64,000 bases of DNA from Pseudocitrobacter corydidari (lineage in GTDB: Bacteria > Pseudomonadota > Gammaproteobacteria > Enterobacterales > Enterobacteriaceae): the NCBI RefSeq assembly GCF_021172065.1, contig NZ_CP087880.1:927111-991110 (forward strand). The letters are read 5' to 3'. Both the position numbers and the translations under genes were made by a program. The notes under the pieces were generated by a model. That model was not told the DNA's origin and did no database searches. It was given only the letters and a program-made list of their open reading frames with translations. Positions 37,324-52,764 of this stretch are shown here, in pieces. How positions within the stretch are numbered: the first letter of the stretch is position 1; each line of letters opens with the position of its first letter.

Positions 37324-38961
37324 TTACTTCGCCGCCTGAACCGGCGCGTCCGGCACCGTATCGCACGGTTTCTCTTTCGGGCAAATCAAATCCAGCATTT
37401 TCAGCGTCACGCCGTTGGTCCAGCCAAAGCCATCCTGCAGCGGATATTCACCGCCGCCCCCGCCCGTCCCGGTGGAGGTAATATCATATTTCTCCACCAG
37501 TTTTTTCTCCTTATCGTAGGTGTGCTGCACGTTGCTCAGGAAGCGCCAGGTGACGTCCATCGCCACTTTCTCCTGACCATAATTCTGCAACCCTTCCACA
37601 GCGACCCACTGTAACGGCGCCCAGCCGTTTGGCGCATCCCACTGTTGCCCGCTGTTAATGGTCGTGGTGGTAATGCCGCCGGGTTTTAACAACCGGCTCT
37701 GCGTCGCCGCCGCCATTTTCGTCGCCCGCTCATGCGAAGCGGCATTCACGTACAGCGGGAACAGGGCGGCAGCCGTGAGCTGATTACGTACCTTGTGCGA
37801 CTTCAGATCGTAATCGGCATACCAGCCCTCTTTATCGTTCCACAGATATTTTTCGATGGCTTTCTGACGCGCGTTAGCTTCGGTATCGTACTGGTTACTT
37901 TTCGCCGTATCGCCCGCGGCTTTGCTCCCTTCGGCGATCAGTTTTTCCATCTTAAACATCAGCGCGTTCAGGTCGACCGGCACGATGCTGGTGGTGCGAA
38001 TGGTGCCCAGTTGCTGCGGGTTATCCATCCAGCGCGAACTGAAATCCCACCCTGATGCGGCGGCGGAGCGCAGGTCGCGGTAGATTTCCGTGGCGGGGCG
38101 ATTCGGGTTTTTCTTCGCCGTGGTCACGTCATCAAGCCACGATTCCGGACGTGGCGTATCGTTATCATCCCAGTAGCGGTTGAGCAGGGTACCGTCGCGC
38201 AGTTTGACCACTCGCTTGTTGGCATCGCCAGGCTGAAGACTGTCTGCGCCGTCCATCCAGTACGCGTGCTCTTTTTCCATCTGCGGCAGATAGGTTTTCA
38301 GCGCGTTGCTGTCATGTTTTGCCAGTAACTCAACCATCAGCGAGAAAAATGGTGGTTGCGAACGGCTTAAATAGTAGCTGCGGTTGCCATTGGGGATATG
38401 CCCCCAGGTGTCGATTTCATAAGCGAAGTTCGCCACCATATCGGCCACTTTATCCCAGTGCCCGCTCTCCGCCAGGCCAAGCATGGTGAAGTAGCTGTCC
38501 CAGTAATACACCTCGCGAAAACGCCCGCCGGGCACCACATACGGTTTTGGCAGCGGCAGCAGGGAACTCCATTTTTCCGCCGTTTCGCTGGTGCGGGTCA
38601 GCACTGGCCACAGGCCATCAATGTGCTGACGCAGGGTTTGCCCTTTGGGCGGCACATAGGTTTCGCCTGCCTGCGGCAACGCAAAGTTCATCTCTACAAA
38701 GTGGCGCAGGTCGAAGCTGGTCTGACTCTTCTGCATGCGGTAATCCGCGAGGATCATCAACGGGTCGCTTTTAGGCACCGCGTCGGCAAAGGTTTTTTGA
38801 TCGGGAAAGAGTTTCGCGCTTTGCACATCATTAAACAGTGGCCCAAGCAGAATATCAGGGGAGGCCGGGTACTCCTCCTGCGCCTGTGCGGCAAAGGCCA
38901 GCAGCAGGGCGCTTAACGTCAGGGTATGGCGCGCAACAGGATGCGCAGCAATGTTCTTCAT
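37324..38961 (-). CDS. treA: TreA, periplasmic trehalase
   Basis: This family GH37 enzyme hydrolyses trehalose to two glucose molecules in the periplasm at high osmolarity. The 545-residue precursor has a signal peptide (cut after AQA, about residue 27) and both trehalase signatures: [14 protein letters not shown] at 144-157 and [10 protein letters not shown] from 440. The [19 protein letters not shown] segment near the end is also conserved. The C-terminus is shorter than the 565-residue E. coli protein. I start at 38961 ([11 protein letters not shown]) with GGAGAAAACCG upstream; an earlier in-frame ATG at 39000 lacks support. Confidence 0.95.
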
Positions 38962-39273
38962 CGGTTTTCTCCATTTCGGCAAACAGCAGGAGCGCTGCAA
39001 TCAACCTGATGAAAACCTTAGTTGAAATTCCTCTTTGCCGTGGCGATTTGCGTGATTAATTGCTGTTTTTTCAGCGCGGATCGCATTGCGATGCGTTAAA
39101 AATGAAAGTCCGTTATTCATTGGAATATCTTTTCGCTGTCTGTATTGGCCATTATTTTTACTGATGAATATTTGCACAGTTATCGCTCATGCATGTTCTG
39201 AAAGGGTGCAGTTAATTCTTATAAATAATAAGGAGAATAAATTAATTTATTTTAAAACAACAAGTTAATTATT

Positions 39274-39289
39274 TGGCATGCCGGTTGCT
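39274..39289 (+). promoter_or_regulatory. sigma54 (-24/-12) promoter of the urea operon
   Basis: TGGCATGCCGGTTGCT agrees with the sigma54 consensus TGGCAC-N5-TTGCT, with the GG and GC doublets exactly 12 bases apart. Transcription would begin near 39300, about 28 bases before the atzF ATG. An NtrC-type activator is the natural candidate for a urea-nitrogen operon (inference). Confidence 0.75.
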
Positions 39290-39303
39290 ATACGAATTCC
39301 ATC

Positions 39304-39314
39304 TTGTATACCAA
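39304..39314 (+). promoter_or_regulatory. possible operator for the FCD-GntR regulator
   Basis: TTGTATACCAA, just past the expected transcription start, is close to TTGTATACAA-type sites bound by FCD-family GntR regulators. A similar word, TTGCTATACGAA, lies at 39285. The regulator is encoded at 44750. This is a weak pattern-based call. Confidence 0.35.
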
Positions 39315-39327
39315 CAGGAATTCCAAC

Positions 39328-41130
39328 ATGGCAGTGATGACCGGAAAAACAGTTAGCGAATGGCAACAGGCCATTGCGCGTAATAGTGACAACGTATTTG
39401 CCTTATTAAATGACCACCTTCAGTCTCTGACTGCGCAGGATAATGCGTGGATCGTGCTTGCCAGTGAAACGCAGGTTCGCGAGCAAATAGATGCTCTGTT
39501 GCCGCACTACCAGCAGCAGCCAGAACGTTATCCGCTGTTTGGTATTCCCTTTGCGATTAAAGACAACGTCGATGCCGCTGGCTGGCCGACCACCGCGGCC
39601 TGCCCGGCGATTGCCACCGTCGCGGAACGCGACGCTATCGCCGTAGCGAAACTGAAAGCGGCGGGGGCGATCCTTATCGGTAAAACTAACCTGGACCAGT
39701 TCGCCACCGGGCTGGTAGGCACGCGCTCTCCCTACGGGGCGGTCGCGAATGCCTTTAACCCCGATTATGTGAGCGGCGGTTCCAGCTCCGGCTCGGCGTC
39801 GGTGGTGGCGCGCGGGCTGGTGCCGTTTGCATTAGGCACTGACACCGCAGGTTCTGGCCGCGTACCCGCCGGGTTCAACAATATTGTCGGGCTGAAGCCG
39901 ACCAAAGGCTGGCTTTCCGCGACCGGTGTTTTCCCGGCCTGTCGTCTGAACGACACGCTTTCGGTGTTTGCCCTGACGGTGGATGACGCCTGGCAGGTTG
40001 CCACGCTCGCCGGAGGGTTCGACTCCGAAGATGCCTATTCCCGAAGCAACCCGGCTACTGCGCCTGCGACTTTTTCGCAAAACCCGGTACTCGCCATTCC
40101 CGACGCGCTGGTGTTCTTTGACGATAGCGCGGCAGAGCAGGCCTGGCAGGCGGCGCTCGGTGCGCTACGCGAAAGCGGCGTGACCTTAAAGCCCATCGAT
40201 TTCACCGCGTTCTATCAACTTGCGGAACAGCTTTACCAGGGCCCGTGGGTGGCCGAGCGCACCGTGGCGGTGGGCGATACGCTGAATCACCCGGAGCAGA
40301 TGGACCCCACCGTCCATACCATCATCGCCGCAGGTCTGAATTACAGCGCCGTTGAGGCTTTTAAAGCCGAATATCTGCGGGCGGAGCTGGCACGCAAGAT
40401 TCAGACCGCGCTTGCTGAGGTTGATGCGTTGGTGGTGCCGACGTCACCGACCATACACACCCTGGCGGATATGGCGCGCGAGCCCATTCGCTTTAATTCG
40501 CAGTTCGGCACTTACACCAATTTCACCAACCTTGCCGATCTCAGCGCCCTCGCGCTGCCGGCCCCGTTCCGGGCAGATGGCTTACCCGCTGGCATCACGT
40601 TGCTTGCCCCGGCCTGGCATGACCGTGCGCTGGCCGATTTTGGCCGCCGCTGGCAGCAACAGCTGGCTCTGCCGCTCGGCGCGACCGGGCACGCCTTCCC
40701 GGCTATCTCTCCATCGTTACCGCTTTCAGAGCATCACGTTCGCGTCGCCGTGGTCGGCGCACATCTGCGCGGTATGCCGCTTAACTTCCAGCTGACTCAG
40801 CGCGATGCGGTGTTTGTTGAGGCGACAGAAACTGCCGCCCGCTATCGGCTTTTTGCGCTGGCGAATACACAGCCGCCGAAACCCGGCATTGCGCGCGATG
40901 CCGACGGCGCGGCGATTCAGGTGGAGCTGTGGGATATCCCGCTGGCGCGCTTTGGCGAGTTTGTCGCTGAAATTCCCGCACCGCTGGGGATTGGCTCACT
41001 GGAGTTGGCCGATGGGCGCTGGGTGAAAGGCTTTATCTGCGAACCGGCGGCACTGAATGACGCCACCGATATCACTGAATTCAAAGGCTGGCGCCACTGG
41101 GTTGGCCGTAAGGAGACGCATCATGTTTAA
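39328..41130 (+). CDS. atzF: AtzF-type allophanate hydrolase
   Basis: It hydrolyses allophanate to ammonia and CO2, the second step of urea amidolyase. The 600-residue protein has an amidase-signature domain (about 1-440) with Lys78, cis-Ser152 and nucleophile Ser176 (GIPFAIKDN; GGSSSGSA; GTDTAGSGR); the 74- and 24-residue spacings match known AtzF. The C-terminal allophanate-hydrolase domain (about 470-600) follows. AGGAATTCCAAC precedes the ATG at 39328 (MAVMTGKTVSEWQQ). Its 3' end overlaps uca by 8 bases, so translation is probably coupled. It is the first gene after the sigma54 promoter. Confidence 0.93.
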   Translation: MAVMTGKTVSEWQQAIARNSDNVFALLNDHLQSLTAQDNAWIVLASETQVREQIDALLPHYQQQPERYPLFGIPFAIKDNVDAAGWPTTAACPAIATVAERDAIAVAKLKAAGAILIGKTNLDQFATGLVGTRSPYGAVANAFNPDYVSGGSSSGSASVVARGLVPFALGTDTAGSGRVPAGFNNIVGLKPTKGWLSATGVFPACRLNDTLSVFALTVDDAWQVATLAGGFDSEDAYSRSNPATAPATFSQNPVLAIPDALVFFDDSAAEQAWQAALGALRESGVTLKPIDFTAFYQLAEQLYQGPWVAERTVAVGDTLNHPEQMDPTVHTIIAAGLNYSAVEAFKAEYLRAELARKIQTALAEVDALVVPTSPTIHTLADMAREPIRFNSQFGTYTNFTNLADLSALALPAPFRADGLPAGITLLAPAWHDRALADFGRRWQQQLALPLGATGHAFPAISPSLPLSEHHVRVAVVGAHLRGMPLNFQLTQRDAVFVEATETAARYRLFALANTQPPKPGIARDADGAAIQVELWDIPLARFGEFVAEIPAPLGIGSLELADGRWVKGFICEPAALNDATDITEFKGWRHWVGRKETHHV

Positions 41131-44100
41131 CACTGTCCTGATTGCTAACCGGGGGGAAATTGCCTGCCGCGCGATGCGTACCTTAAAGCGGCTGGGCATC
41201 ACCAGCGTCGCGGTCTATTCCGATGCGGATAAAAACGCGGAACACGTCAAGCAGGCGGATATCGCGCTGGCGCTGGGCGGAGAGAAAGCCAGCGACAGCT
41301 ATCTGCGCATCGACAAAATCATCGCCGCCGCGCAGGAAAGCGGGGCGCAGGCTATCTGGCCGGGTTACGGTTTTCTCTCGGAAAGCCTGGCATTTGCCGA
41401 TGCCTGCGAGCAGGCGGGCATCGCGTTTGTCGGCCCAACGGCGCAGCAGATTGGCGAGTTCGGGTTAAAGCACCGGGCGCGCGAACTGGCGGCGCAGGCG
41501 GGCGTGCCGATGACGCCGGGAACCGGGCTGCTGGACACTGTTGAAGAGGCGCTAAACGCCGCGCAGAACATTGGCTTTCCGGTGATGCTCAAAAGTACGG
41601 CGGGTGGCGGCGGTATCGGCCTCACACGCTGCGCCGACCCAGAGGCGCTGGTGCAGGCGTGGGAGAGCGTGCGTCGTCTCGGCGAACAGTTCTTTAGCGA
41701 TGCTGGCGTGTTTATTGAGCGCTGTATCGATCGCGCCCGTCATATCGAAGTGCAGATCTTTGGCGATGGCAACGGCAATGTTGTCGCCCTGGGCGAGCGC
41801 GACTGCTCTCTTCAGCGGCGCAATCAGAAGGTGGTTGAAGAGACGCCTGCGCCGAATCTGCCGCAGGCCACGCGCGAAGCACTCCTGAAGGCCGCCGTTG
41901 AGCTGGGCAAGCTGGTGAATTACCGCAGCGCAGGTACGGTGGAATTTATCTACGACCCCGAGCAGGACGCGTTCTATTTCCTCGAAGTGAACACCCGTTT
42001 GCAGGTGGAGCATCCGGTAACCGAGTGCGTTACCGGGCTTGATCTGGTGGAGTGTATGCTGCGCGTCGCCGCAGGCGAAAGCATCGACTGGGCACGTCTG
42101 GCTCAGGCCCCACAGGGCGCGGCGATGGAAGTGCGCATCTATGCGGAAAACCCGCTAAAGAACTTCCAGCCGAGCCCCGGCGTGCTAACGGAAGTTGCTT
42201 TCCCGGACGGAGTGCGCATTGACAGCGGCGTGGCGACAGGCAGTGAAGTCTCTGCATTTTACGACCCGATGATCGCCAAGCTGATCGTGCATACGGATAC
42301 CCGCGAGGCGGCGCTGGAGAAACTGACGCAGGCGCTGAACGCCACGCGGTTGCACGGCATTACTACCAATCTCGATTATCTGCGCCAGATAACCTCCAGC
42401 GAGGCGTTTACGGAAGGCCGCGTCTGGACGCGCTGGCTCGATAGCGTGGAAGCAGAATCTCCGGTGATTGAAGTGCTGCAACCGGGCACCTGGAGCAGCA
42501 TTCAGGATTATCCGGGGCGTCTGGGGTACTGGGATATTGGCGTACCGCCCTCCGGGCCAATGGATGATTACGCCTTTCGACTGGCGAACCGCATCGTCGG
42601 TAACCATCACACCGCCGCCGGGCTGGAGTTCACGCTTCAGGGGCCGGTATTGCGTTTTCACACGGACGCGGTCATTGCCCTCACCGGGGCAGATTGTCAG
42701 GCGCTGCTGGATGAGACTCCCGTGCCGCTCTGGCAGCCGGTCACGGTTAAGCGTGGGCAGACCCTCAGCCTTGGGCGCGCCAAAGCGGGGTGTCGCGCGT
42801 ACCTCGCGGTGCGTAACGGTTTTGATGTCCCGGAGTACCTCGGAAGCCGTTCCACCTTCGCCCTGGGGCAGTTTGGCGGCCACGCCGGACGCACGCTGAA
42901 AGTGGCCGATCTGCTGCCCGTTTCGCGGCCGGAACTGAATGCCTGCACCACGCCTGCGCCGGTGAGCGAACCGCAGGCGCTGGCCGCGTCGCTGGTGCCT
43001 GAATATGGCGATAGCTGGCGCATCGGCGTGCTGTATGGCCCGCACGGCGCGCCGGATTTCTTCAGTCAGAAATCGATTGATGACTTTTTCGCCAGCGAAT
43101 GGCAGGTGCATTACAACTCTAACCGCCTCGGTGTGCGACTGGTCGGCCCAAAACCGGAATGGACTCGCCCGGATGGCGGCGAAGCCGGGTTGCACCCCTC
43201 CAACGTGCATGACTGCGAATACGCCATTGGTGCGATTAACTTTACCGGCGACTTCCCGGTGATCCTCACGCGCGATGGGCCGAGCCTGGGAGGATTTGTC
43301 TGCCCGGTCACCATTGCCAAAGCGGAGCTGTGGAAAGTGGGGCAGGTGAAGCCCGGCGACACGATTCGCTTCTACCCTATAAGCGTGGCAGACGCGGTTG
43401 CACGGGAAAAGGCGATGGATCGCACGATCGACACGCTCCAGTCCAGCCATCTGACGACATTCGCCGTGCCATCGCTGGCCGCGCGTGATGGCGTCTCGGC
43501 GACGGCGCTGGTGTCGTTGCCTGCCAGCGCGACAACGCCCGCCATCGTCTATCGCCAGGCGGGAGATAATTACATCCTGATTGAATACGGTGACAACGTC
43601 CTCGATCTGGCACTGCGCCTGCGCGTGCATCTGCTGATGGCGCGGCTGAACGATTTATCGCATCCGGGCATTAAAGAGCTTTCGCCGGGCGTGCGCTCGC
43701 TACAGGTGCGCTACGACAGCCGTGAAATCAGCCAGCAGGCGCTGGTGGCGATTCTGCTGGAGCAGGAGTCGCACATGGGCGATGTCAGCGAAATGAAAGT
43801 CCCGTCGCGCATCGTCTGGCTGCCGATGGCTTTTGAAGATACCGCGACGCTGGATGCCGTCAGCCGTTATCAGGATACGGTTCGCGCCAGCGCGCCATGG
43901 TTACCGAATAACGTTGATTTCATCCAGCGCATCAATGGGCTGGCGAGCCGCGAGGCGGTGCGTGACACGATTTTCGATGCCAGCTATCTGATCCTCGGGC
44001 TGGGCGATGTTTACCTCGGCGCTCCCTGCGCTGTACCGATTGACCCGCGCCACCGCTTGTTGAGTTCGAAATACAACCCGGCGCGTACCTTTACCGCAGA

Positions 44101-44740
44101 AGGCACGGTCGGCATTGGCGGCATGTATATGTGTATCTACGGCATGGACTCTCCCGGCGGTTATCAACTGGTGGGGCGCACGCTGCCTATCTGGAATAAA
44201 TTCCTCAAAAACCGTCAGTTCTCGGCGGGCGAGCCCTGGCTGCTGCGCTTCTTTGACCAGGTGCGCTTCTATCCGGTCAGCGAAAGCGAACTCAATCAAC
44301 TGCGTGATGATTTCCGCGAAGGCCGCGCCGCCGTGCGCATCGAAGAGAGCGAGTTCGATTTTGCTGAACATCTGCGCTTCCTTGAGGCCAACGCCGAGGA
44401 GATCCGAGACTTCCGAGAGAAGCAGGCGCTGGCCTTCGAAGGCGAAGTCGCGCGCTGGCAGATGGATGAACAAGCCGTCGACGCAGAGCGCCCGCACCCG
44501 GTTGTCATCGAGGAAGCCGACGATGATGCCTTTGCCGTGACCGGCGATATGAACGGCAACATCTGGAAAGTGCTGGTGAAACCGGGCGATGAGGTGACCG
44601 AAGGGCAGCCGCTGATCATCGTCGAAGCGATGAAAATGGAGCTGGCGATCCACGCCCCTCAGGCGGGAACCGTGAAACGCATCGGCTGTCAGCCGGGCCA
44701 CCCGGTGAGCCCCGGCGATGCGCTGTTGTGGCTGGCGTAA
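41123..44740 (+). CDS. uca: urea carboxylase (biotin-dependent)
   Basis: It carboxylates urea to allophanate with ATP and bicarbonate. The 1205-residue protein is a complete single chain: a biotin carboxylase domain (about 1-450, MFNTVLIANRGEIACR; ATP loop KSTAGGGGIGLT), the KipA-like carboxyltransferase region (about 465-770, IQDYPGRLGYWDIGVPPSGPMD), the KipI-like region (about 820-1035), and a biotinyl domain with Lys1171 in EAMKME. Together with AtzF it replaces urease. The ATG at 41123 lies after AAGGAGACGCATC and inside the end of atzF. No UAAP1/UAAP2 genes, often found beside uca, are present. Confidence 0.95.
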   Translation: MFNTVLIANRGEIACRAMRTLKRLGITSVAVYSDADKNAEHVKQADIALALGGEKASDSYLRIDKIIAAAQESGAQAIWPGYGFLSESLAFADACEQAGIAFVGPTAQQIGEFGLKHRARELAAQAGVPMTPGTGLLDTVEEALNAAQNIGFPVMLKSTAGGGGIGLTRCADPEALVQAWESVRRLGEQFFSDAGVFIERCIDRARHIEVQIFGDGNGNVVALGERDCSLQRRNQKVVEETPAPNLPQATREALLKAAVELGKLVNYRSAGTVEFIYDPEQDAFYFLEVNTRLQVEHPVTECVTGLDLVECMLRVAAGESIDWARLAQAPQGAAMEVRIYAENPLKNFQPSPGVLTEVAFPDGVRIDSGVATGSEVSAFYDPMIAKLIVHTDTREAALEKLTQALNATRLHGITTNLDYLRQITSSEAFTEGRVWTRWLDSVEAESPVIEVLQPGTWSSIQDYPGRLGYWDIGVPPSGPMDDYAFRLANRIVGNHHTAAGLEFTLQGPVLRFHTDAVIALTGADCQALLDETPVPLWQPVTVKRGQTLSLGRAKAGCRAYLAVRNGFDVPEYLGSRSTFALGQFGGHAGRTLKVADLLPVSRPELNACTTPAPVSEPQALAASLVPEYGDSWRIGVLYGPHGAPDFFSQKSIDDFFASEWQVHYNSNRLGVRLVGPKPEWTRPDGGEAGLHPSNVHDCEYAIGAINFTGDFPVILTRDGPSLGGFVCPVTIAKAELWKVGQVKPGDTIRFYPISVADAVAREKAMDRTIDTLQSSHLTTFAVPSLAARDGVSATALVSLPASATTPAIVYRQAGDNYILIEYGDNVLDLALRLRVHLLMARLNDLSHPGIKELSPGVRSLQVRYDSREISQQALVAILLEQESHMGDVSEMKVPSRIVWLPMAFEDTATLDAVSRYQDTVRASAPWLPNNVDFIQRINGLASREAVRDTIFDASYLILGLGDVYLGAPCAVPIDPRHRLLSSKYNPARTFTAEGTVGIGGMYMCIYGMDSPGGYQLVGRTLPIWNKFLKNRQFSAGEPWLLRFFDQVRFYPVSESELNQLRDDFREGRAAVRIEESEFDFAEHLRFLEANAEEIRDFREKQALAFEGEVARWQMDEQAVDAERPHPVVIEEADDDAFAVTGDMNGNIWKVLVKPGDEVTEGQPLIIVEAMKMELAIHAPQAGTVKRIGCQPGHPVSPGDALLWLA

Positions 44741-44749
44741 GGAGGCGTA

Positions 44750-45424
44750 ATGGAAAGCAGCAAGCGTAGTCCCGGCCTTGGCGAGCGAATTTATCACGCG
44801 CTGAAAAACGACATCTTCGATTTTCGCCTGATGCCCGGTGAGCATTTCAGCGAAAGCGAGATTTCAGAGCGAATGGCCGCCAGCCGCACACCGGTGCGCC
44901 AGGCCCTGTTTCGTCTCGAACAGGAGGGCTACGTGCAGGTGTACAGCCGGAGCGGCTGGCAGGTGAAGCCGTTTGATTTCGCCTGGTTCGAAGCGCTGTA
45001 CGACTTTCGCATCGTACTGGAGTGTGAAGCAGTTAAGCGCCTGTGCGACATGCCGCCCGCGATGTGCCAGGACCATCTCGCACCGCTGGTGGATTTCTGG
45101 ATAGAGGCACCGCGCATGGCGCCCGGCAAAACTCTTTCACGCCATGACGAGGCTTTCCACACCACGCTGGTACGTGCCAGCGGCAACGAAGAAATGGTGC
45201 GCGTGCATATCGAGCTGACGGAAAAGATTCGCATTATTCGCCATCTCGACTTCACCCGCGAGGACCGCGTGGATGCCACCTATCAGGAGCATGCGCGCAT
45301 ATTGCAGGCGGTGCTGCGTCAGCAAAGGGAAGAGGCGCAGCGCCTGCTGACAGAACACATTTCACAGAGTAAAGCCGAGGTCAGGAAAATTACCCTGCAC
45401 CGGCTCCAGCAGGCCAGGTTGTAA
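44750..45424 (+). CDS. FCD-family GntR transcriptional regulator of the urea locus
   Basis: This 224-residue regulator has an N-terminal winged helix-turn-helix (about 1-72; FSESEISERMAASRTPVRQALFRLEQEGYV) and an all-helical FCD ligand domain (about 80-215) with the metal- or ligand-binding Asp/His set (HDEAFHTTLVRASGN; HARILQAVL; LLTEHI). Its position 9 bases after uca, behind AAGGAGGCGTA, and before urtA argues that it controls urea use, with urea, allophanate or a related compound as ligand (inference). I do not recognise a named orthologue. Confidence 0.85.
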   Translation: MESSKRSPGLGERIYHALKNDIFDFRLMPGEHFSESEISERMAASRTPVRQALFRLEQEGYVQVYSRSGWQVKPFDFAWFEALYDFRIVLECEAVKRLCDMPPAMCQDHLAPLVDFWIEAPRMAPGKTLSRHDEAFHTTLVRASGNEEMVRVHIELTEKIRIIRHLDFTREDRVDATYQEHARILQAVLRQQREEAQRLLTEHISQSKAEVRKITLHRLQQARL

Positions 45425-45434
45425 GACGTTCCCG

Positions 45435-45450
45435 CTCCGCATGTGCGGAG
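45435..45450 (+). other. palindrome between the gntR gene and urtA
   Basis: CTCCGCA-TG-TGCGGAG lies 32 bases before urtA. It could be an RNA hairpin that partly ends the atzF-uca-gntR transcript or an operator for the regulator. No T run follows. Confidence 0.45.
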
Positions 45451-45481
45451 ACATTAATCAATATTATTTAGGGGTTTAGTG

Positions 45482-46753
45482 ATGAAAAGACGTTCTTTAC
45501 TGAAAGCTTTTGCCCTCTCCGCGACCTTTTTGAGCATGGGCTTCTCGTTACAGGCATACGCAGCAGACACCATTAAAGTCGGCATCATGCACTCGCTCTC
45601 CGGCACGATGGCGATTTCAGAAACGCCATTAAAGGATATGGCGCTGATGACCATTGATGAAATCAACGCCAAAGGCGGCGTGCTGGGTAAAAAACTGGAA
45701 CCGGTGGTGGTTGACCCCGCGTCAAACTGGCCGCTGTTCGCGGAGAAAGCGCGCCAGCTGCTGAGCCAGGATAAAGCCGCCGTGGTGTTTGGCTGCTGGA
45801 CGTCGGTGTCGCGCAAATCGGTGCTGCCGGTATTTGAAGAACTGAACGGCTTGCTGTTCTATCCGGTGCAGTACGAAGGCGAAGAGATGTCGCCAAATGT
45901 GTTCTACACCGGGGCGGCGCCGAATCAGCAGGCGATCCCGGCAGTCGAGTACATGATGAGCGAAGACGGCGGCGGGGCGAAGCGCTTCTTCCTGCTGGGC
46001 ACCGACTACGTTTATCCGCGCACCACCAACAAAATTCTGCGCGCGTTCCTGCATTCAAAAGGCGTTCAGGATAAAGATATTGAAGAGGTGTATACGCCGT
46101 TTGGTTACAGCGACTATCAGACCATTGTCTCCAGTATCAAAAAATTCTCCGCAGGCGGTAAAACGGCGGTGATCTCCACCATTAACGGTGACTCCAACGT
46201 GCCGTTCTATAAAGAACTCGCCAATCAGGGCATTAAGTCCACCGATGTGCCGGTCGTGGCGTTCTCCGTCGGCGAAGAGGAGCTGCGCGGCATCGACACC
46301 AAACCGCTGGTGGGCCACCTGGCCGCGTGGAACTACTTTGAATCGGTCAGCAACCCGGTGAACACCAAATTCGTGGCGGATTATCGCGCCTATGCCAAAG
46401 CGCATAAGTTGCCGAACGCCGATACGGTGGTGACCAACGACCCGATGGAGGCGACCTATGTCGGTATTCATATGTGGGCGCAGGCGGTGGAAAAAGCGGG
46501 CACCACGGATGTGGATAAAGTGCGTGAAGCGATGGCGAATCAATCGTTTTCTGCGCCGAGCGGTTTCACCCTCACCATGGATGCCACCAACCACCATCTG
46601 CATAAACCGGTGATGATTGGCGAAATCGAAGATAACGGGCAGTTCAACGTGGTGTGGCAGACCGAACAACCGGTGCGCGCGCAGCCGTGGAGCCCGTACA
46701 TTCCGGGCAATGACAAAAAATCGGAAAGTCCGGTGAAGACGGGCGGTAAATAA
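45482..46753 (+). CDS. urtA: UrtA, urea ABC transporter substrate-binding protein
   Basis: This periplasmic urea-binding protein is of the branched-chain amino-acid (LivJ-like) type. The 423-residue precursor has a signal peptide (about 1-27) starting MKRRSLLKAF, where the twin arginine followed by SLLK resembles a Tat motif, and cut after AYA. The mature part reads KVGIMHSLSGTMAISETPLKD, characteristic of UrtA, with VFGCWTSVSRKSVLPVFEE. I start at ATG 45482; a GTG one codon upstream is also possible. AGGGG precedes it. It is the first of urtABCDE. Confidence 0.94.
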   Translation: MKRRSLLKAFALSATFLSMGFSLQAYAADTIKVGIMHSLSGTMAISETPLKDMALMTIDEINAKGGVLGKKLEPVVVDPASNWPLFAEKARQLLSQDKAAVVFGCWTSVSRKSVLPVFEELNGLLFYPVQYEGEEMSPNVFYTGAAPNQQAIPAVEYMMSEDGGGAKRFFLLGTDYVYPRTTNKILRAFLHSKGVQDKDIEEVYTPFGYSDYQTIVSSIKKFSAGGKTAVISTINGDSNVPFYKELANQGIKSTDVPVVAFSVGEEELRGIDTKPLVGHLAAWNYFESVSNPVNTKFVADYRAYAKAHKLPNADTVVTNDPMEATYVGIHMWAQAVEKAGTTDVDKVREAMANQSFSAPSGFTLTMDATNHHLHKPVMIGEIEDNGQFNVVWQTEQPVRAQPWSPYIPGNDKKSESPVKTGGK

Positions 46754-46795
46754 TCGCAGCGGCGGGGGCGGATGACGCCTCTGCCAACGGTTGGC

Positions 46796-46816
46796 TGGCC
46801 CGGCGTTGTCGGGCCA
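46796..46816 (+). other. intercistronic hairpin between urtA and urtB
   Basis: TGGCCCG and CGGGCCA arms enclose seven bases in the 83-base urtA-urtB gap. It lacks a T run. Hairpins here commonly protect the binding-protein message so that UrtA exceeds the permease (inference). Confidence 0.55.
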
Positions 46817-46836
46817 CAAAAGAAGACACCGACACG

Positions 46837-48402
46837 ATGAAAATTTTAAGCTCTCTTTTTATTAGCTGTCTGTTGATGGCAACCTCGGCGCTGGCCGGTC
46901 CCGCTGAAGATTACGGCAAGGCGAACCGCAGCCAGCAGGCGCAGTTGCTGCAACAGTGGGCGCAAACGCCGGACGCTTCCCGCCTGACGCTGTTACAGGC
47001 GTTGAGCCGTGAAACGGTGGTGATGGACAGCCAGGGCCAGCTTTTTTCACAGCAGCAGGGCAAACTCACGCCGCTGGAGGGCGACGCTGCGCCCGCTGGC
47101 GCGACGAAAAAAGTGTTTATGAATAACCGTCTGCGTGGGCTGGTCGCCAGTGCGCTGTCGGCGCATCAACTGGTGAGCCCGGACGACGCCGTACGGTTGC
47201 AGGCAGCGCAGGCGTTGCAGACCAGCGCGCAGGCAGATCAGTTACCGTTCCTCAGCCAACGTCTGGCCGCAGAGAAAAATGACGCCGTACATCAGGCGCT
47301 GGGTATCGCGGTTGCCGGATTACAGTTAACCGATAGCCGTCCAGCCCAGCGCTTGCAGGCGGTGAAATTACTGGGCGAGGCCAGCGATCCCCAGGTTCAG
47401 GCGAGTCTGAACCGACTCACGCAGCCAGAAAATGAACCGGATGCGGCAGTGCGCGACGCGGCGGCCGATAGCCTGAAACAGATCCAGCAGCGCCTGAAAT
47501 GGGGTGAGTGGCTGGGGCTGGCGTTTAGCGGCTTATCGCTGGGCTCGATTCTGCTGCTGGCGGCGCTAGGCCTTGCCATTACTTACGGCCTGCTGGGCGT
47601 CATCAATATGGCGCACGGAGAAATGCTGATGCTGGGCGCATACGCCACCTGGCTGGTGCAGGATTTCTTTGCCCGTTACGCGCCGGACTGGCTGGCGCTT
47701 TACCCTCTGGCGGCGCTGCCGGTGGCTTTCGCCATTACCGCCGTGATGGGCATGCTGCTCGAGCGTACGATTATTCGCCATTTGTATGGGCGCCCGCTGG
47801 AAACGCTGCTGGCAACGTGGGGGATCAGCCTGATGCTTATTCAACTGGTGCGCGTGATATTTGGCACGCAAAACCTGGAAGTGGCGAACCCGGCGTGGTT
47901 ATCGGGCGGCTGGAACGCGCTGCCGAATCTGGTGCTGCCGTACAACCGGATTGCGGTGATCGTTTTCGTGGCGGGCGTGCTGGCGCTGACCTGGCTGCTG
48001 CTCAATAAAACCCGTCTCGGAATGAACGTGCGGGCGGTCACACAGAATCGCCGGATGGCGGACTGTTGCGGCGTGCCGACCGGGCGTGTGGATATGCTGG
48101 CGTTTGGGCTGGGTTCCGGCATCGCCGGGCTGGGCGGCGTGGCGTTATCCCAGTTGGGCAACGTGGGGCCGGAGCTGGGGCAGGGGTACATCATCGACTC
48201 CTTCCTGGTGGTGGTGACTGGCGGCGTTGGGCAACTGGCGGGCACCGTGGTGGCCGCGCTGGGGCTGGGCGTGCTGAATAAATTCCTCGAACCACAGCTT
48301 GGCGCGGTGCTGGGGAAAATCGCCATCCTGGTGATGATTGTGCTGTTTATCCAGAAGCGGCCGCAGGGGCTGTTTGCCTTCAAAGGGAGGGTGATTGACT
48401 GA
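46837..48402 (+). CDS. urtB: UrtB, urea ABC transporter permease
   Basis: This LivH-type inner-membrane permease has 521 residues. It has a signal-like N-terminus (about 1-21, ending ALAG), an extra periplasmic helical-repeat domain (about 22-220) that is a known trait of UrtB and absent from LivH, then about eight membrane helices (about 225-515) with the GLLGVINMAHGEMLMLGAYATW motif. The stop overlaps the urtC start in TGATG, so the two are translationally coupled. Confidence 0.93.
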   Translation: MKILSSLFISCLLMATSALAGPAEDYGKANRSQQAQLLQQWAQTPDASRLTLLQALSRETVVMDSQGQLFSQQQGKLTPLEGDAAPAGATKKVFMNNRLRGLVASALSAHQLVSPDDAVRLQAAQALQTSAQADQLPFLSQRLAAEKNDAVHQALGIAVAGLQLTDSRPAQRLQAVKLLGEASDPQVQASLNRLTQPENEPDAAVRDAAADSLKQIQQRLKWGEWLGLAFSGLSLGSILLLAALGLAITYGLLGVINMAHGEMLMLGAYATWLVQDFFARYAPDWLALYPLAALPVAFAITAVMGMLLERTIIRHLYGRPLETLLATWGISLMLIQLVRVIFGTQNLEVANPAWLSGGWNALPNLVLPYNRIAVIVFVAGVLALTWLLLNKTRLGMNVRAVTQNRRMADCCGVPTGRVDMLAFGLGSGIAGLGGVALSQLGNVGPELGQGYIIDSFLVVVTGGVGQLAGTVVAALGLGVLNKFLEPQLGAVLGKIAILVMIVLFIQKRPQGLFAFKGRVID

Positions 48403-49478
48403 TGAGCCAGCCACTGACACTGACTTTAGCCCGCCGCGCGCCGCGTGTGTCGGGCGCACTCGGCGCGTTGATTTTCATCGTGCTGCTGATTCTGCCCTTT
48501 CTGGCGCTGTTGCCTGCGGCGCATCCGCTGGCGGTTTCAACCTACACGCTTACGCTGATGGGCAAAATCCTGTGCTATGCGATCGTCGCCGTGGCGCTGG
48601 ATCTGGTGTGGGGTTACGCCGGTCTGCTCTCGCTTGGACACGGGTTGTTCTTCGCCCTGGGTGGCTACGCGATGGGCATGTACCTGATGCGCCAGGCCGC
48701 GGGCGATGGCTTACCCGCCTTTATGTCGTTTCTCTCGTGGACGGAACTGCCGTGGTTCTGGGCCGGTACCCAGCACTTTGCCTGGGCGTTGTGCCTGATC
48801 GTTCTGGTGCCTGGCCTGCTGGCGCTGCTGTTTGGCTACTTCGCTTTCCGCTCGCGCATCAAAGATGTCTACTTCTCGATCATGACTCAGGCGCTGACCT
48901 ACGCCGGTATGTTGCTGTTTTTCCGTAACGAAACCGGTTTTGGCGGCAACAACGGCTTTACGGGATTCACCACGATTTTAGGCTTTCCGGTGTCGGCGAC
49001 GGGCACGCGCATCGCGCTGTTTATCGCTACCGTGTTGCTGCTGGTGGCGGCGCTGGCGATCGGCGTGGCGATCACCCGCAGCAAGTTTGGCCGGGTGCTG
49101 ACCGGTGTGCGCGATGCGGAGAATCGCCTGATGTTCTGTGGTTACGACCCGCGCGGATTCAAGCTGTTCGTCTGGACGCTGTCAGCGGTGCTGTGTGGGC
49201 TGGCGGGGGCGCTGTATGTGCCGCAGGTGGGCATTATCAACCCCAGCGAAATGTCGCCCACTAACTCTATCGAAGCGGCGATCTGGGTGGCGCTCGGCGG
49301 TCGCGGATCGCTGATTGGCCCGGTGCTGGGCGCGGGCATTGTGAACGGTGCGAAAAGCTGGTTTACCGTCGCGTTCCCTGACTACTGGCTCTTTTTCCTT
49401 GGCCTGATGTTTATTCTGGTGACCCTGTTTTTACCGCGCGGCGTGATTGGCCTGCTCAAACGGAGGAAGCATGACTGA
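48402..49478 (+). CDS. urtC: UrtC, urea ABC transporter permease
   Basis: This is the LivM-type partner of UrtB, with 358 residues and about ten hydrophobic segments. Typical motifs are the GYAGLLSLGHGLFFALGGYAMGMYL stretch near residue 67 and the GGNNGFTGF and NPSEMSPTNSIEAAIWVALGGRGSLIGPV blocks. It begins in the overlap with urtB and ends in an 8-base overlap with urtD (ATGACTGA), so the four downstream genes form one tight unit. Confidence 0.93.
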   Translation: MSQPLTLTLARRAPRVSGALGALIFIVLLILPFLALLPAAHPLAVSTYTLTLMGKILCYAIVAVALDLVWGYAGLLSLGHGLFFALGGYAMGMYLMRQAAGDGLPAFMSFLSWTELPWFWAGTQHFAWALCLIVLVPGLLALLFGYFAFRSRIKDVYFSIMTQALTYAGMLLFFRNETGFGGNNGFTGFTTILGFPVSATGTRIALFIATVLLLVAALAIGVAITRSKFGRVLTGVRDAENRLMFCGYDPRGFKLFVWTLSAVLCGLAGALYVPQVGIINPSEMSPTNSIEAAIWVALGGRGSLIGPVLGAGIVNGAKSWFTVAFPDYWLFFLGLMFILVTLFLPRGVIGLLKRRKHD

Positions 49479-50262
49479 TTCCCTTTTTACCCAGCCATTG
49501 CCGCAGGATCGCTATCGTGGAAAAACCGACCCGGTGCTGCAACTGGAAAAGATCAACGTCACCTTTGACGGCTTTCGCGCGTTAACCGATCTCTCGTTGT
49601 CGATTGGCGTGGGGGAACTGCGCTGCGTGATTGGCCCTAACGGCGCGGGTAAAACCACGTTGATGGATGTGATCACCGGGAAAACCCAGCCGGATAACGG
49701 GCGGATTTTTTACGATCAGACTATCGACCTGCGCACCTTATCGCCCGTTGAGATTGCTCGCGCGGGGATTGGCCGCAAGTTTCAGAAACCCACCGTGTTT
49801 GAAGCGCTGACGGTGCTGGAAAATCTCGAAATCGCGCAGAAAAATGATAAATCCGTGTGGCACAGCCTGCGCGCTAAACTCAGCGGCGAGCAGCGAGATC
49901 GCATCAATGAGGTGTTGCATCTGCTGCGCCTTACCGACTCCAGCCAGCGCGCGGCGGGGTTGTTATCCCATGGGCAAAAACAGTTTCTGGAAATTGGCAT
50001 GCTGCTGGTGCAGGAGCCGCATCTGTTACTGCTGGATGAACCCGCCGCCGGGCTGACGGATGCAGAAACGGAATACATTGCCGAACTGTTTCGGACGCTG
50101 GCAGGAAAGCACTCATTGATGGTGGTTGAGCACGATATGGGCTTTGTCGAGAGTATCGCCGACCACGTGACGGTGCTGCATCAGGGGCAGGTGCTGGCGG
50201 AGGGCTCGCTGCGCGACGTACAGGCCAACGAGCAGGTTATCGACGTTTATCTGGGGCGCTAA
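49471..50262 (+). CDS. urtD: UrtD, urea ABC transporter ATPase
   Basis: This LivG-type ATP-binding subunit has 263 residues. Walker A is GPNGAGKTT at 55-63, the signature is LSHGQKQFLEIGMLL and Walker B LLLLDEPAAGLT, with VVEHDMGFV as the switch histidine. I begin it at ATG 49471 (MTDSLFTQPLPQD), 3 bases after CGGAGGA; a longer in-frame start at 49447 lies inside urtC without a site. It pairs with UrtE. Confidence 0.94.
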   Translation: MTDSLFTQPLPQDRYRGKTDPVLQLEKINVTFDGFRALTDLSLSIGVGELRCVIGPNGAGKTTLMDVITGKTQPDNGRIFYDQTIDLRTLSPVEIARAGIGRKFQKPTVFEALTVLENLEIAQKNDKSVWHSLRAKLSGEQRDRINEVLHLLRLTDSSQRAAGLLSHGQKQFLEIGMLLVQEPHLLLLDEPAAGLTDAETEYIAELFRTLAGKHSLMVVEHDMGFVESIADHVTVLHQGQVLAEGSLRDVQANEQVIDVYLGR

Positions 50263-50263
50263 T

Positions 50264-50962
50264 ATGTTGCAGGTTCAGGATCTTAATCAATATTACGGCG
50301 GCAGCCACATTCTGCGCGGCTTGTCGTTCGACACCACGCCGGGGGAAATCACCTGTCTGTTAGGGCGCAACGGCGTGGGCAAAACCACGCTGCTGAAATG
50401 TCTGATGGGCGTTATTCCGGCGAAATCTGGCGAGATCCGCTGGAAAGGAAAGGTGATTAACGGGATGAGGCCGCATCAGCGCGTGCAGCAGGGGATTGCT
50501 TATGTGCCGCAGGGGCGCGAAATCTTCCCGCGTCTGACGGTAGAAGAGAACCTGTTGATGGGGCTGGCGCGTTTCTCCGGGCGTGACGCAAAAGCGGTAC
50601 CGGAAGAGATCTATGCGCTCTTTCCGGTGCTGCGTGAAATGAAACAGCGACGCGGCGGTGATTTATCCGGCGGGCAACAGCAGCAGCTGGCGATTGGCCG
50701 CGCGCTCGCCTGTCGCCCGGAACTGCTGATTCTTGATGAACCTACAGAAGGGATTCAACCGTCGGTGATCAAAGAGATTGGCGCGGTGATCACAAGTCTC
50801 GCCAGGCGCGGCGACATGGCGATTCTGCTGGTGGAGCAGTTTTATGACTTTGCCGCCGAGCTTGCGGATAACTATCTGGTGATGTCGCGCGGAGCGATTA
50901 TCCAGCGCGGGCGCGGTGATGAAATGGAGGCGCAGGGCGTGCGCGGGCTGGTGGCGATTTAG
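50264..50962 (+). CDS. urtE: UrtE, urea ABC transporter ATPase
   Basis: This LivF-type ATP-binding subunit has 232 residues. Walker A is GRNGVGKTT at 34-42, the signature [15 protein letters not shown], Walker [15 protein letters not shown], and the switch region [11 protein letters not shown]. It starts one base after the urtD stop. Its last four bases overlap the last bases of prpR on the other strand, so the two operons meet directly with no terminator between them. Confidence 0.94.
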
Positions 50963-52539
50963 CGCGCCTGTTCCTCTTTCAGCCGTCGCCAGAAGGTGGT
51001 GCGGCTGACGCCCAGATAACGCGCGGCGGCGCTGCGATCGCCGCCACACTGTGCCAGCGCATCGAGGGCTGACGGCGCAAATGTGAGCGTGTTTCCCGCG
51101 TCATACAGCTCTGGCAGCAGTGCGGGAAGGTCCCGCTCATCGCTGACCATATCGCTACTGAGCAACAGCGCCAGGCGCTCGCAGAGGTTGCGAAGTTCGC
51201 GAATGTTGCCCGGCCAGGCGTAGCGCAACAACGGCGGCAGGCAGAGGGCGATGCGGTGATTCAGAGTATCGCTCAGCGGCGAATCCAGCGTCGCCAGCGA
51301 TTGCGTCAGGTAGCGTCGTGCCAGAAGCGCGATATCGTCGCCGCGCTCGCGCAGGGCGGGTACGCGCAGGCGCAGAGCGCTGAGGCGGAAAAAGAGATCG
51401 GCGCGGAAACGCCCCTCGGCGACGGCTTGTTGCAGGTCGCAATGCGTCGCGCTGATGACACGAAACTCAACGTTCAGCGGCTGCTGCCCGCCGACGCGCG
51501 TCACGCGCTTTTCCTCCAGCACGCGCAGTAAACGCGTTTGCAGATGCAGCGGCATCTCGCCGATTTCATCGAGGAACAGCGTGCCACCGTTGGCCGTTTC
51601 CAGCAGGCCGCTGCGCCCGCCGCGCCGCGAGCCGGTGAACGCGCCTTCTTCATAGCCAAACAACTCGGCTTCCAGCAACGACTCCGCAATCGCCCCGCAG
51701 TTGATCGCCACAAAGGGCGGCGAGCCGCGGCCCGCGCGCGGACGATGGCGGGCAAAATATTCCTGATGCAGCGCCTGCGCCGCCAGCTCTTTCCCGGTGC
51801 CGGTTTCGCCTTCAATCAACACCGCCGCCGGGGATCGCGCATAGAGCAGAATCGTTCGGCGCACCTGTTCCATTATTGCCGATTCCCCCACCAGATCGCC
51901 CAGGCCGTAGCGGGTTCGCAGCGTGTCGCGTTGGGCGCTGCTGCGGATGGTGGCCGAAAAGCGGGTCATATCCAGCGCATCGTTGAACGCCTGGCGCACC
52001 GTGGCGGCTGAATAGAGAAAAACTGCCGCCAGCCCGGCCTCTTCGGCGAGTTCCGTTACTAATCCCGCGCCGACCACCACGCGGATCCCGGAGGCTTTTA
52101 ATTCGGTTATCTGGCTACGGGCATCCTCTTCGGTGACGTAGCTGCGCTGTTCAAGCGGCAGCTGGAAGCTTTTCTGAAACTCCTGCAGGGCAGGCAGCGG
52201 CGCTTTGTAGGTGATAACGCCGATCCGATCGGCGACGCGGCGTGCTTTGCCCAGCGCCTGTAACAGATCAAATCCGCCGGGGCGGATCAGGATAACCGGC
52301 ACCGAGAGGCGACTTTTCAGATACGCACCGTTCGAACCGGCAGCAATAATTGCGTCGCAGTGTTCGGTGGCCAGTTTCTGGCGGATGTACTGCACCGCTT
52401 TCTCAAAACCGAGCTGAATCGGCGTGATTGTTGCCAGATGGTCGAACTCAAGGCTGATATCGCGGAACAGATCAAACAGGCGCGTTACTGAGACGGTCCA
52501 GATAACCGGTTTTGCAGCTGGCGTGATGTTATCGGTCAT
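50959..52539 (-). CDS. prpR: PrpR, sigma54-dependent activator of prpBCDE
   Basis: PrpR senses 2-methylcitrate and activates prpBCDE with sigma54. The 526-residue protein has the PrpR N-terminal sensor domain (about 15-195), a linker, the AAA+ activator domain (about 215-440) with Walker A GETGTGKE at 244-251, the sigma54-contact [10 protein letters not shown] loop and EIGEMPL, and a Fis-type helix-turn-helix at the end ([22 protein letters not shown]). It is divergent from prpB across 272 bases that contain the regulatory sites listed. Confidence 0.96.
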
Positions 52540-52748: not shown

Positions 52749-52764
52749 TGGCACATCGCTTGCT
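52749..52764 (+). promoter_or_regulatory. sigma54 (-24/-12) promoter of prpBCDE
   Basis: TGGCACATCGCTTGCT matches TGGCAC-N5-TTGCT in full, 48 bases before the prpB start. It fits PrpR control known from Salmonella and E. coli. Confidence 0.88.

Follow-up and report, generated by a model that had tools for sequence, protein, structure and literature searches.

The sequence TGGCATGCCGGTTGCT, at 39274-39289 on the + strand of the 64 kb of DNA analysed here (the window), is almost certainly a real σ54 promoter of the atzF operon, as judged from its retention 5' of this gene in related genomes. Promoter-, enhancer- and operator-like sequences lie together upstream of atzF; their conservation, their spacing, the association of one of them with gntR, and the identities of the downstream genes were all observed by comparing sequences, the source of all the evidence here. 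They point to a scheme, considered quite probable as a whole, in which atzF-uca-gntR-urtABCDE would be read from a σ54 promoter that is activated by NtrC and repressed by GntR at the transcription start. The features of the control region are listed below, with offsets counted from the first T of the promoter and with TGCACC-N5-GGTGCA as the NtrC consensus.

39173..39189, + strand: upstream NtrC-like dyad TGCACAGTTATCGCTCA, 8/12, left half good and right half weak, offset -101
39194..39210, + strand: downstream NtrC-like dyad TGTTCTGAAAGGGTGCA, 9/12, one good half, offset -80
39255..39267, + strand: IHF-like site AAACAACAAGTTA, 8/9 of WATCAANNNNTTR, offset -19/-18, weak evidence
39274..39289, + strand: σ54 -24/-12 promoter element TGGCATGCCGGTTGCT
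39294..39323, unstranded: probable GntR operator GAATTCCATCTTGTATACCAACAGGAATTC with core CTTGTATACCA, an imperfect dyad of 11/15 pairs around GTATAC
39300, + strand: predicted transcription start (+1), placed by counting from C39288 as -12

The motif is present as originally predicted, with its GG (39275-39276) and GC (39287-39288) in the exact GG-N10-GC arrangement just before atzF, and it matches TGGCACG-N4-TTGCW at 11 of the 12 specified positions. There are 38 bases between the element and the atzF ATG at 39328, and the predicted start would give a leader of 28 nt. Taken alone, TGGCATGCCGGTTGCT is weak evidence, since a first-order Markov simulation predicts about 0.6 such matches (11/12 with GG/GC) by chance in every 64 kb, and judging the promoter by its motif alone was rejected because the string is not sufficiently rare. 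The window has two matches of this quality. The second, TGGCACATCGCTTGCT at 52749-52764 on the + strand, is between the divergent prpR (50959-52539) and a prp gene (52806) and is a built-in positive control.

Scans of the 5.0 Mb host genome were made with exact patterns, the σ54, NtrC, and IHF patterns being textbook consensus sequences and not trained matrices. The stricter pattern TGGCAYG-N4-TTGCW occurs seven times, versus two occurrences for the reversed control. The proteins encoded downstream of the six other exact matches were assigned by eye. Three of these matches precede gltI, glnK, and rpoH, at distances of 33–235 nt, two precede flagellar-type genes, and one precedes a nitrogen-type ABC transporter, at its binding protein gene behind a guanidine-I riboswitch. 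In E. coli, gltI, glnK, and rpoH are known σ54 targets. The genes found downstream would suggest that an exact match in this genome usually resembles a real promoter.

The genes that follow the promoter are:

39328..41130, + strand: atzF, allophanate hydrolase (TIGR02713, 810 bits versus a cut-off of 511)
41123..44740, + strand: uca, urea carboxylase (TIGR02712, 1964 bits versus a cut-off of 1304)
44750..45424, + strand: GntR/FCD-family regulator gene (PF00392 and PF07729)
45479..46753, + strand: urtA, urea ABC transporter binding protein (TIGR03407)
46837..50962, + strand: urtBCDE, urea ABC transporter permeases and ATPases (TIGR03409, TIGR03408, TIGR03411, TIGR03410)

All of the atzF, uca, and urtABCDE assignments are above the curated NCBIfam cut-offs, and AtzF is 96% identical in the closest named relatives, Pseudocitrobacter faecalis and P. 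vendiensis. At residue 707 Uca carries the motif GAIN, with Asn where guanidine carboxylases have Asp, a residue which we take to be the diagnostic urea/guanidine position. This motif was aligned to the same motif in the fungal urea amidolyase of known structure, 5i8i. According to a review, Asn marks the urea carboxylases and Asp the guanidine carboxylases (PMC12186494); Uca has the active-site Asn, and there is no riboswitch in the window. The host genome has no urease alpha gene, which bears out the proposal of a urease-independent urea pathway, and the dedicated GntR-type regulator that had been proposed is encoded within the operon itself, by the gene for the PF00392 and PF07729 protein. 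The promoter had been assigned to the urea carboxylase and allophanate hydrolase genes. This stands for atzF and uca, but the unit was drawn too short, as it very probably also takes in gntR and urtABCDE. The gntR-urtA gap is only about 54 bases and no terminator-like structure was found on the + strand within 44600-46900, so that a single transcript running from atzF to urtE is likely.

It is conservation that establishes the promoter, because the motif alone is weak evidence. The sample was of 198 genomes of the family, 60 of which encode this AtzF, and the addition of one E. coli copy gave 61 upstream regions; there are related genomes in the sample, and the statistics therefore overstate independence. 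Of the 61 atzF loci, 49 have a σ54 element scoring 10/12 or better, its GG and GC exact, no more than 200 bases upstream, compared with 0.9% when the sequences are dinucleotide-shuffled; across these regions the element is mostly at -53 to -58 from the atzF ATG. The -24 element is kept in all 52 of the sampled family genomes that have the operon with its own gntR, with both GG and GC intact in 49 of them; in L032, L044, and L062, which are gntR-bearing, TGGCA is kept and the -12 element is altered. While TGGCA is invariant, the invariance of GG and GC is partly built in, since the sites were selected by these doublets. The independent evidence for the predicted promoter is the comparison with shuffles, the nearly uniform distance from the ATG, and the spacing from promoter to operator core, which is fixed at 30–31 bp. 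The claim of a σ54 promoter for atzF and uca is thus sustained by conservation across relatives, the motif by itself having been insufficient to establish it.

Both elements recur beyond the family. In two Achromobacter genomes TGGCACGCGTATTGCT precedes CTTGTATACAAG, and uca is followed by an orthologous gntR; in Marinospirillum the match to the promoter is weaker, the perfect palindrome CTTGTATACAAG is found again, and an orthologous gntR lies alongside. In L029, from a reduced genome of 1.4 Mb (G037), atzF is kept and gntR and the promoter are lost; a remnant of the right arm of the operator, GATGGAATTCA, remains, and there is a long inverted repeat, CATATTGTTTAGTTAGAGCACTTTTCATCTCTTACGG, upstream.

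The CTTGTATACCA dyad, which overlaps the predicted start at 39300, is likely to be the operator of GntR, with GntR most simply repressing initiation. Its core, as TTGTATAC or TTGTGTAC, is found in 52 of 52 genomes with gntR versus none of 8 without it (Fisher p ~4e-10, uncorrected for the relatedness of the genomes). Most of the eight genomes that do not have gntR have a different layout, in which a carboxylase gene leads straight into atzF. The CTTGTATACCA core occurs once in the host genome, where the search for a second operator gave no site with fewer than three mismatches. The fact that the core tracks gntR and recurs beside orthologous gntR genes outside the family makes GntR the best candidate for the protein that binds it. 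It is rather unlikely that GntR is instead an activator, or has its targets elsewhere, with the dyad at the start serving another regulator or an RNA function. A global regulator could also bind such a dyad, and the GntR recognition helix is identical across the operator variants. Set against this are the perfect association of the dyad with gntR and the single site in the genome overlapping +1, and an RNA from this promoter would be without the full dyad. A hairpin formed by the GAATTCC and GGAATTC arms was rejected because the left arm comes before the predicted +1. A leader riboswitch was likewise rejected, with no Rfam match near the operon and a predicted leader of only 28 nt.

In L036, L037, L039, L040, L042, L044-L048, L056, L058, and L062, TTGTGTAC replaces TTGTATAC, and operators of the TTGTGTAC type are mostly 31, not 30, bp from the promoter. 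Co-variation of the TTGTGTAC variant with the DNA-contact residues of GntR was considered and rejected, as M28L is the sole change in the N-terminal domain that distinguishes the groups. The sequence CTTGTATACAAG is present in L079, L080, and L089, and no paper describing it as a GntR operator was found in the literature covered, which was incomplete.

With GntR as the probable repressor, NtrC is the likely activator of the atzF operon. This had been proposed from the first, and a scan of the gap with the simple consensus agrees with it, in that NtrC-like dyads are conserved at fixed positions and both NtrC (812.7 bits, above cut-off) and RpoN are encoded in the host genome. The two dyads of the window are individually weak, at 9/12 and 8/12. 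Among 45 nonredundant regions, a dyad of at least 9/12 is present 30–170 bases upstream of the promoter in 67%, versus 5.2% of shuffles, an enrichment of about 13-fold; in a control block taken from these regions farther upstream, the figure is 4.4%. The best dyads of these 45 regions pile up at -80 and -101, a separation of 21 bases, or two helical turns. The IHF-like site is less strongly enriched than the NtrC dyads, with at least 8/9 in 44% of the relatives versus 16% of shuffles.

The promoter could in principle be driven by another enhancer-binding protein, given that several further σ54 activators are encoded in the host genome, including the neighbouring PrpR (50959-52539), the gene for which is just past urtE and convergent with it. 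This is improbable, as the conserved upstream dyads are of the NtrC type, the same type of dyad being present upstream of glnA in this genome. For PrpR in particular, there is a σ54-like site of its own at 52749, beside the prp gene, and the atzF promoter is retained in copies without an adjacent prpR, on plasmids and in a strain of E. coli. That the motif is a chance match, with the operon read from a σ70 promoter, is very improbable even at about 0.6 matches of such quality expected per window, for the element is kept across dozens of genera at fixed spacing and no σ70-like site was found within 38900-39500.

Under nitrogen limitation, NtrC-phosphate would bind the pair of tandem dyads, with centres at about 98 and 119 bp before the start, and loop over, possibly with the help of IHF, to open the σ54 polymerase at a start near 39300. 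We infer from the sequences that both RpoN and NtrC would be needed. GntR/FCD would bind the CTTGTATACCA dyad over the start and block initiation until an inducer from the pathway appears. Urea and allophanate are the candidates for this inducer, the choice between them being a guess; in yeast, allophanate induces the urea amidolyase genes. Since NtrC would activate in low nitrogen and GntR would block until the inducer is present, the output would be a conjunction, an AND gate that opens when nitrogen is short and substrate is present. UrtABCDE would then import urea, Uca would carboxylate it to allophanate, and AtzF would release ammonia.

This arrangement is like that of the enteric NtrC/σ54 promoters glnA p2, glnK, and gltI in having a -24/-12 element with upstream TGCACC-N5-GGTGCA dyads, and the exact 16-mer pattern is shared by glnK and gltI of the host genome. 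It differs from them in the addition of a probable local repressor operator over the start, which would bring substrate control. In the atzR-atzDEF cyanuric acid system of Pseudomonas sp. ADP, nitrogen and substrate jointly control an allophanate hydrolase gene, although there the local regulator is LysR-type and σ54 acts on the regulator gene. The original prediction held such double control to be uncommon. This does not hold for the operon family, where double control appears to be normal, since the σ54 element and the probable GntR operator are both standard in gntR-bearing relatives (49–52 of 52 genomes) and are found also in Achromobacter and Marinospirillum.

Elsewhere, urea carboxylase, atzF, or urt genes have already been reported or predicted to be under Ntr control (PMC5491218, PMC5343134, PMC8381380). 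In an ntrC mutant of Burkholderia cenocepacia, urea carboxylase expression falls by 6.0 log2 and growth on urea is lost, and the urt genes also lose expression, but the gene clusters are different and urt there lies with urease (PMC5491218). In the passages available from a comparative genomics study, atzF is in the predicted NtrC regulons of Rhizobiales and urt in those of several orders (PMC5343134). In those available for Klebsiella oxytoca, the operon named, UreABC-UrtABCDE, is induced by nitrogen starvation, with NtrC/σ54 suggested on data not shown (PMC8381380). The enterobacterial atzF-uca-gntR-urt operon and the GntR operator are not named in the passages from these two sources. A broad σ54 survey has genes annotated as urea carboxylase among its predicted targets (PMC12316311). 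In the literature covered, which was incomplete, no publication was found on the enterobacterial atzF-uca-gntR-urt promoter and its GntR operator.

Guanidine carboxylase operons with guanidine-I and -II riboswitches have a related carboxylase, with allophanate as the common intermediate, and differ in their active-site Asp, versus Asn in Uca, and in their riboswitch control (PMC12186494). The host has a second carboxylase, 52–53% identical to Uca and with Asp (GAVD), which sits behind guanidine-I and guanidine-II riboswitches at C1 ~1865000-1873000. An exact σ54 match at C1:1873007-1873022, on the - strand, precedes the guanidine-use operon (L139, C1:1856000-1875000), and there is a 9/12 NtrC-like dyad at -80. 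This operon is without an adjacent allophanate hydrolase gene, and the genome has no close AtzF other than that encoded by the atzF of the window. It is a speculative and rather doubtful suggestion that GntR senses allophanate and that the single AtzF serves both the urea and the guanidine pathways. If true, two nitrogen-scavenging branches would be linked by sharing an enzyme, an intermediate, and an Ntr signal.

The same operon and regulatory block are found next to transposase genes in E. coli ECONIH4 and also on plasmids of Enterobacter and Klebsiella, the Enterobacter copy being flanked by IS and Tn3-like elements. AtzF relatives are on 38 plasmid records, which by annotation are from Salmonella, Enterobacter, Klebsiella, and others. 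In the three mobile copies read (L140, L141, and L038), two of which are beside IS/Tn elements, the promoter, NtrC-like sites, and operator are intact. The presence of the whole cassette, including its promoter, on plasmids and in the E. coli strain would make it a probable ready-to-use urea module under nitrogen regulation, which could function as soon as it enters any host that has NtrC and RpoN. The comparative evidence places a urease-independent enterobacterial urea pathway in the Ntr response, a fairly expected addition, and names for the uncharacterised GntR regulator a specific candidate operator that is directly testable.
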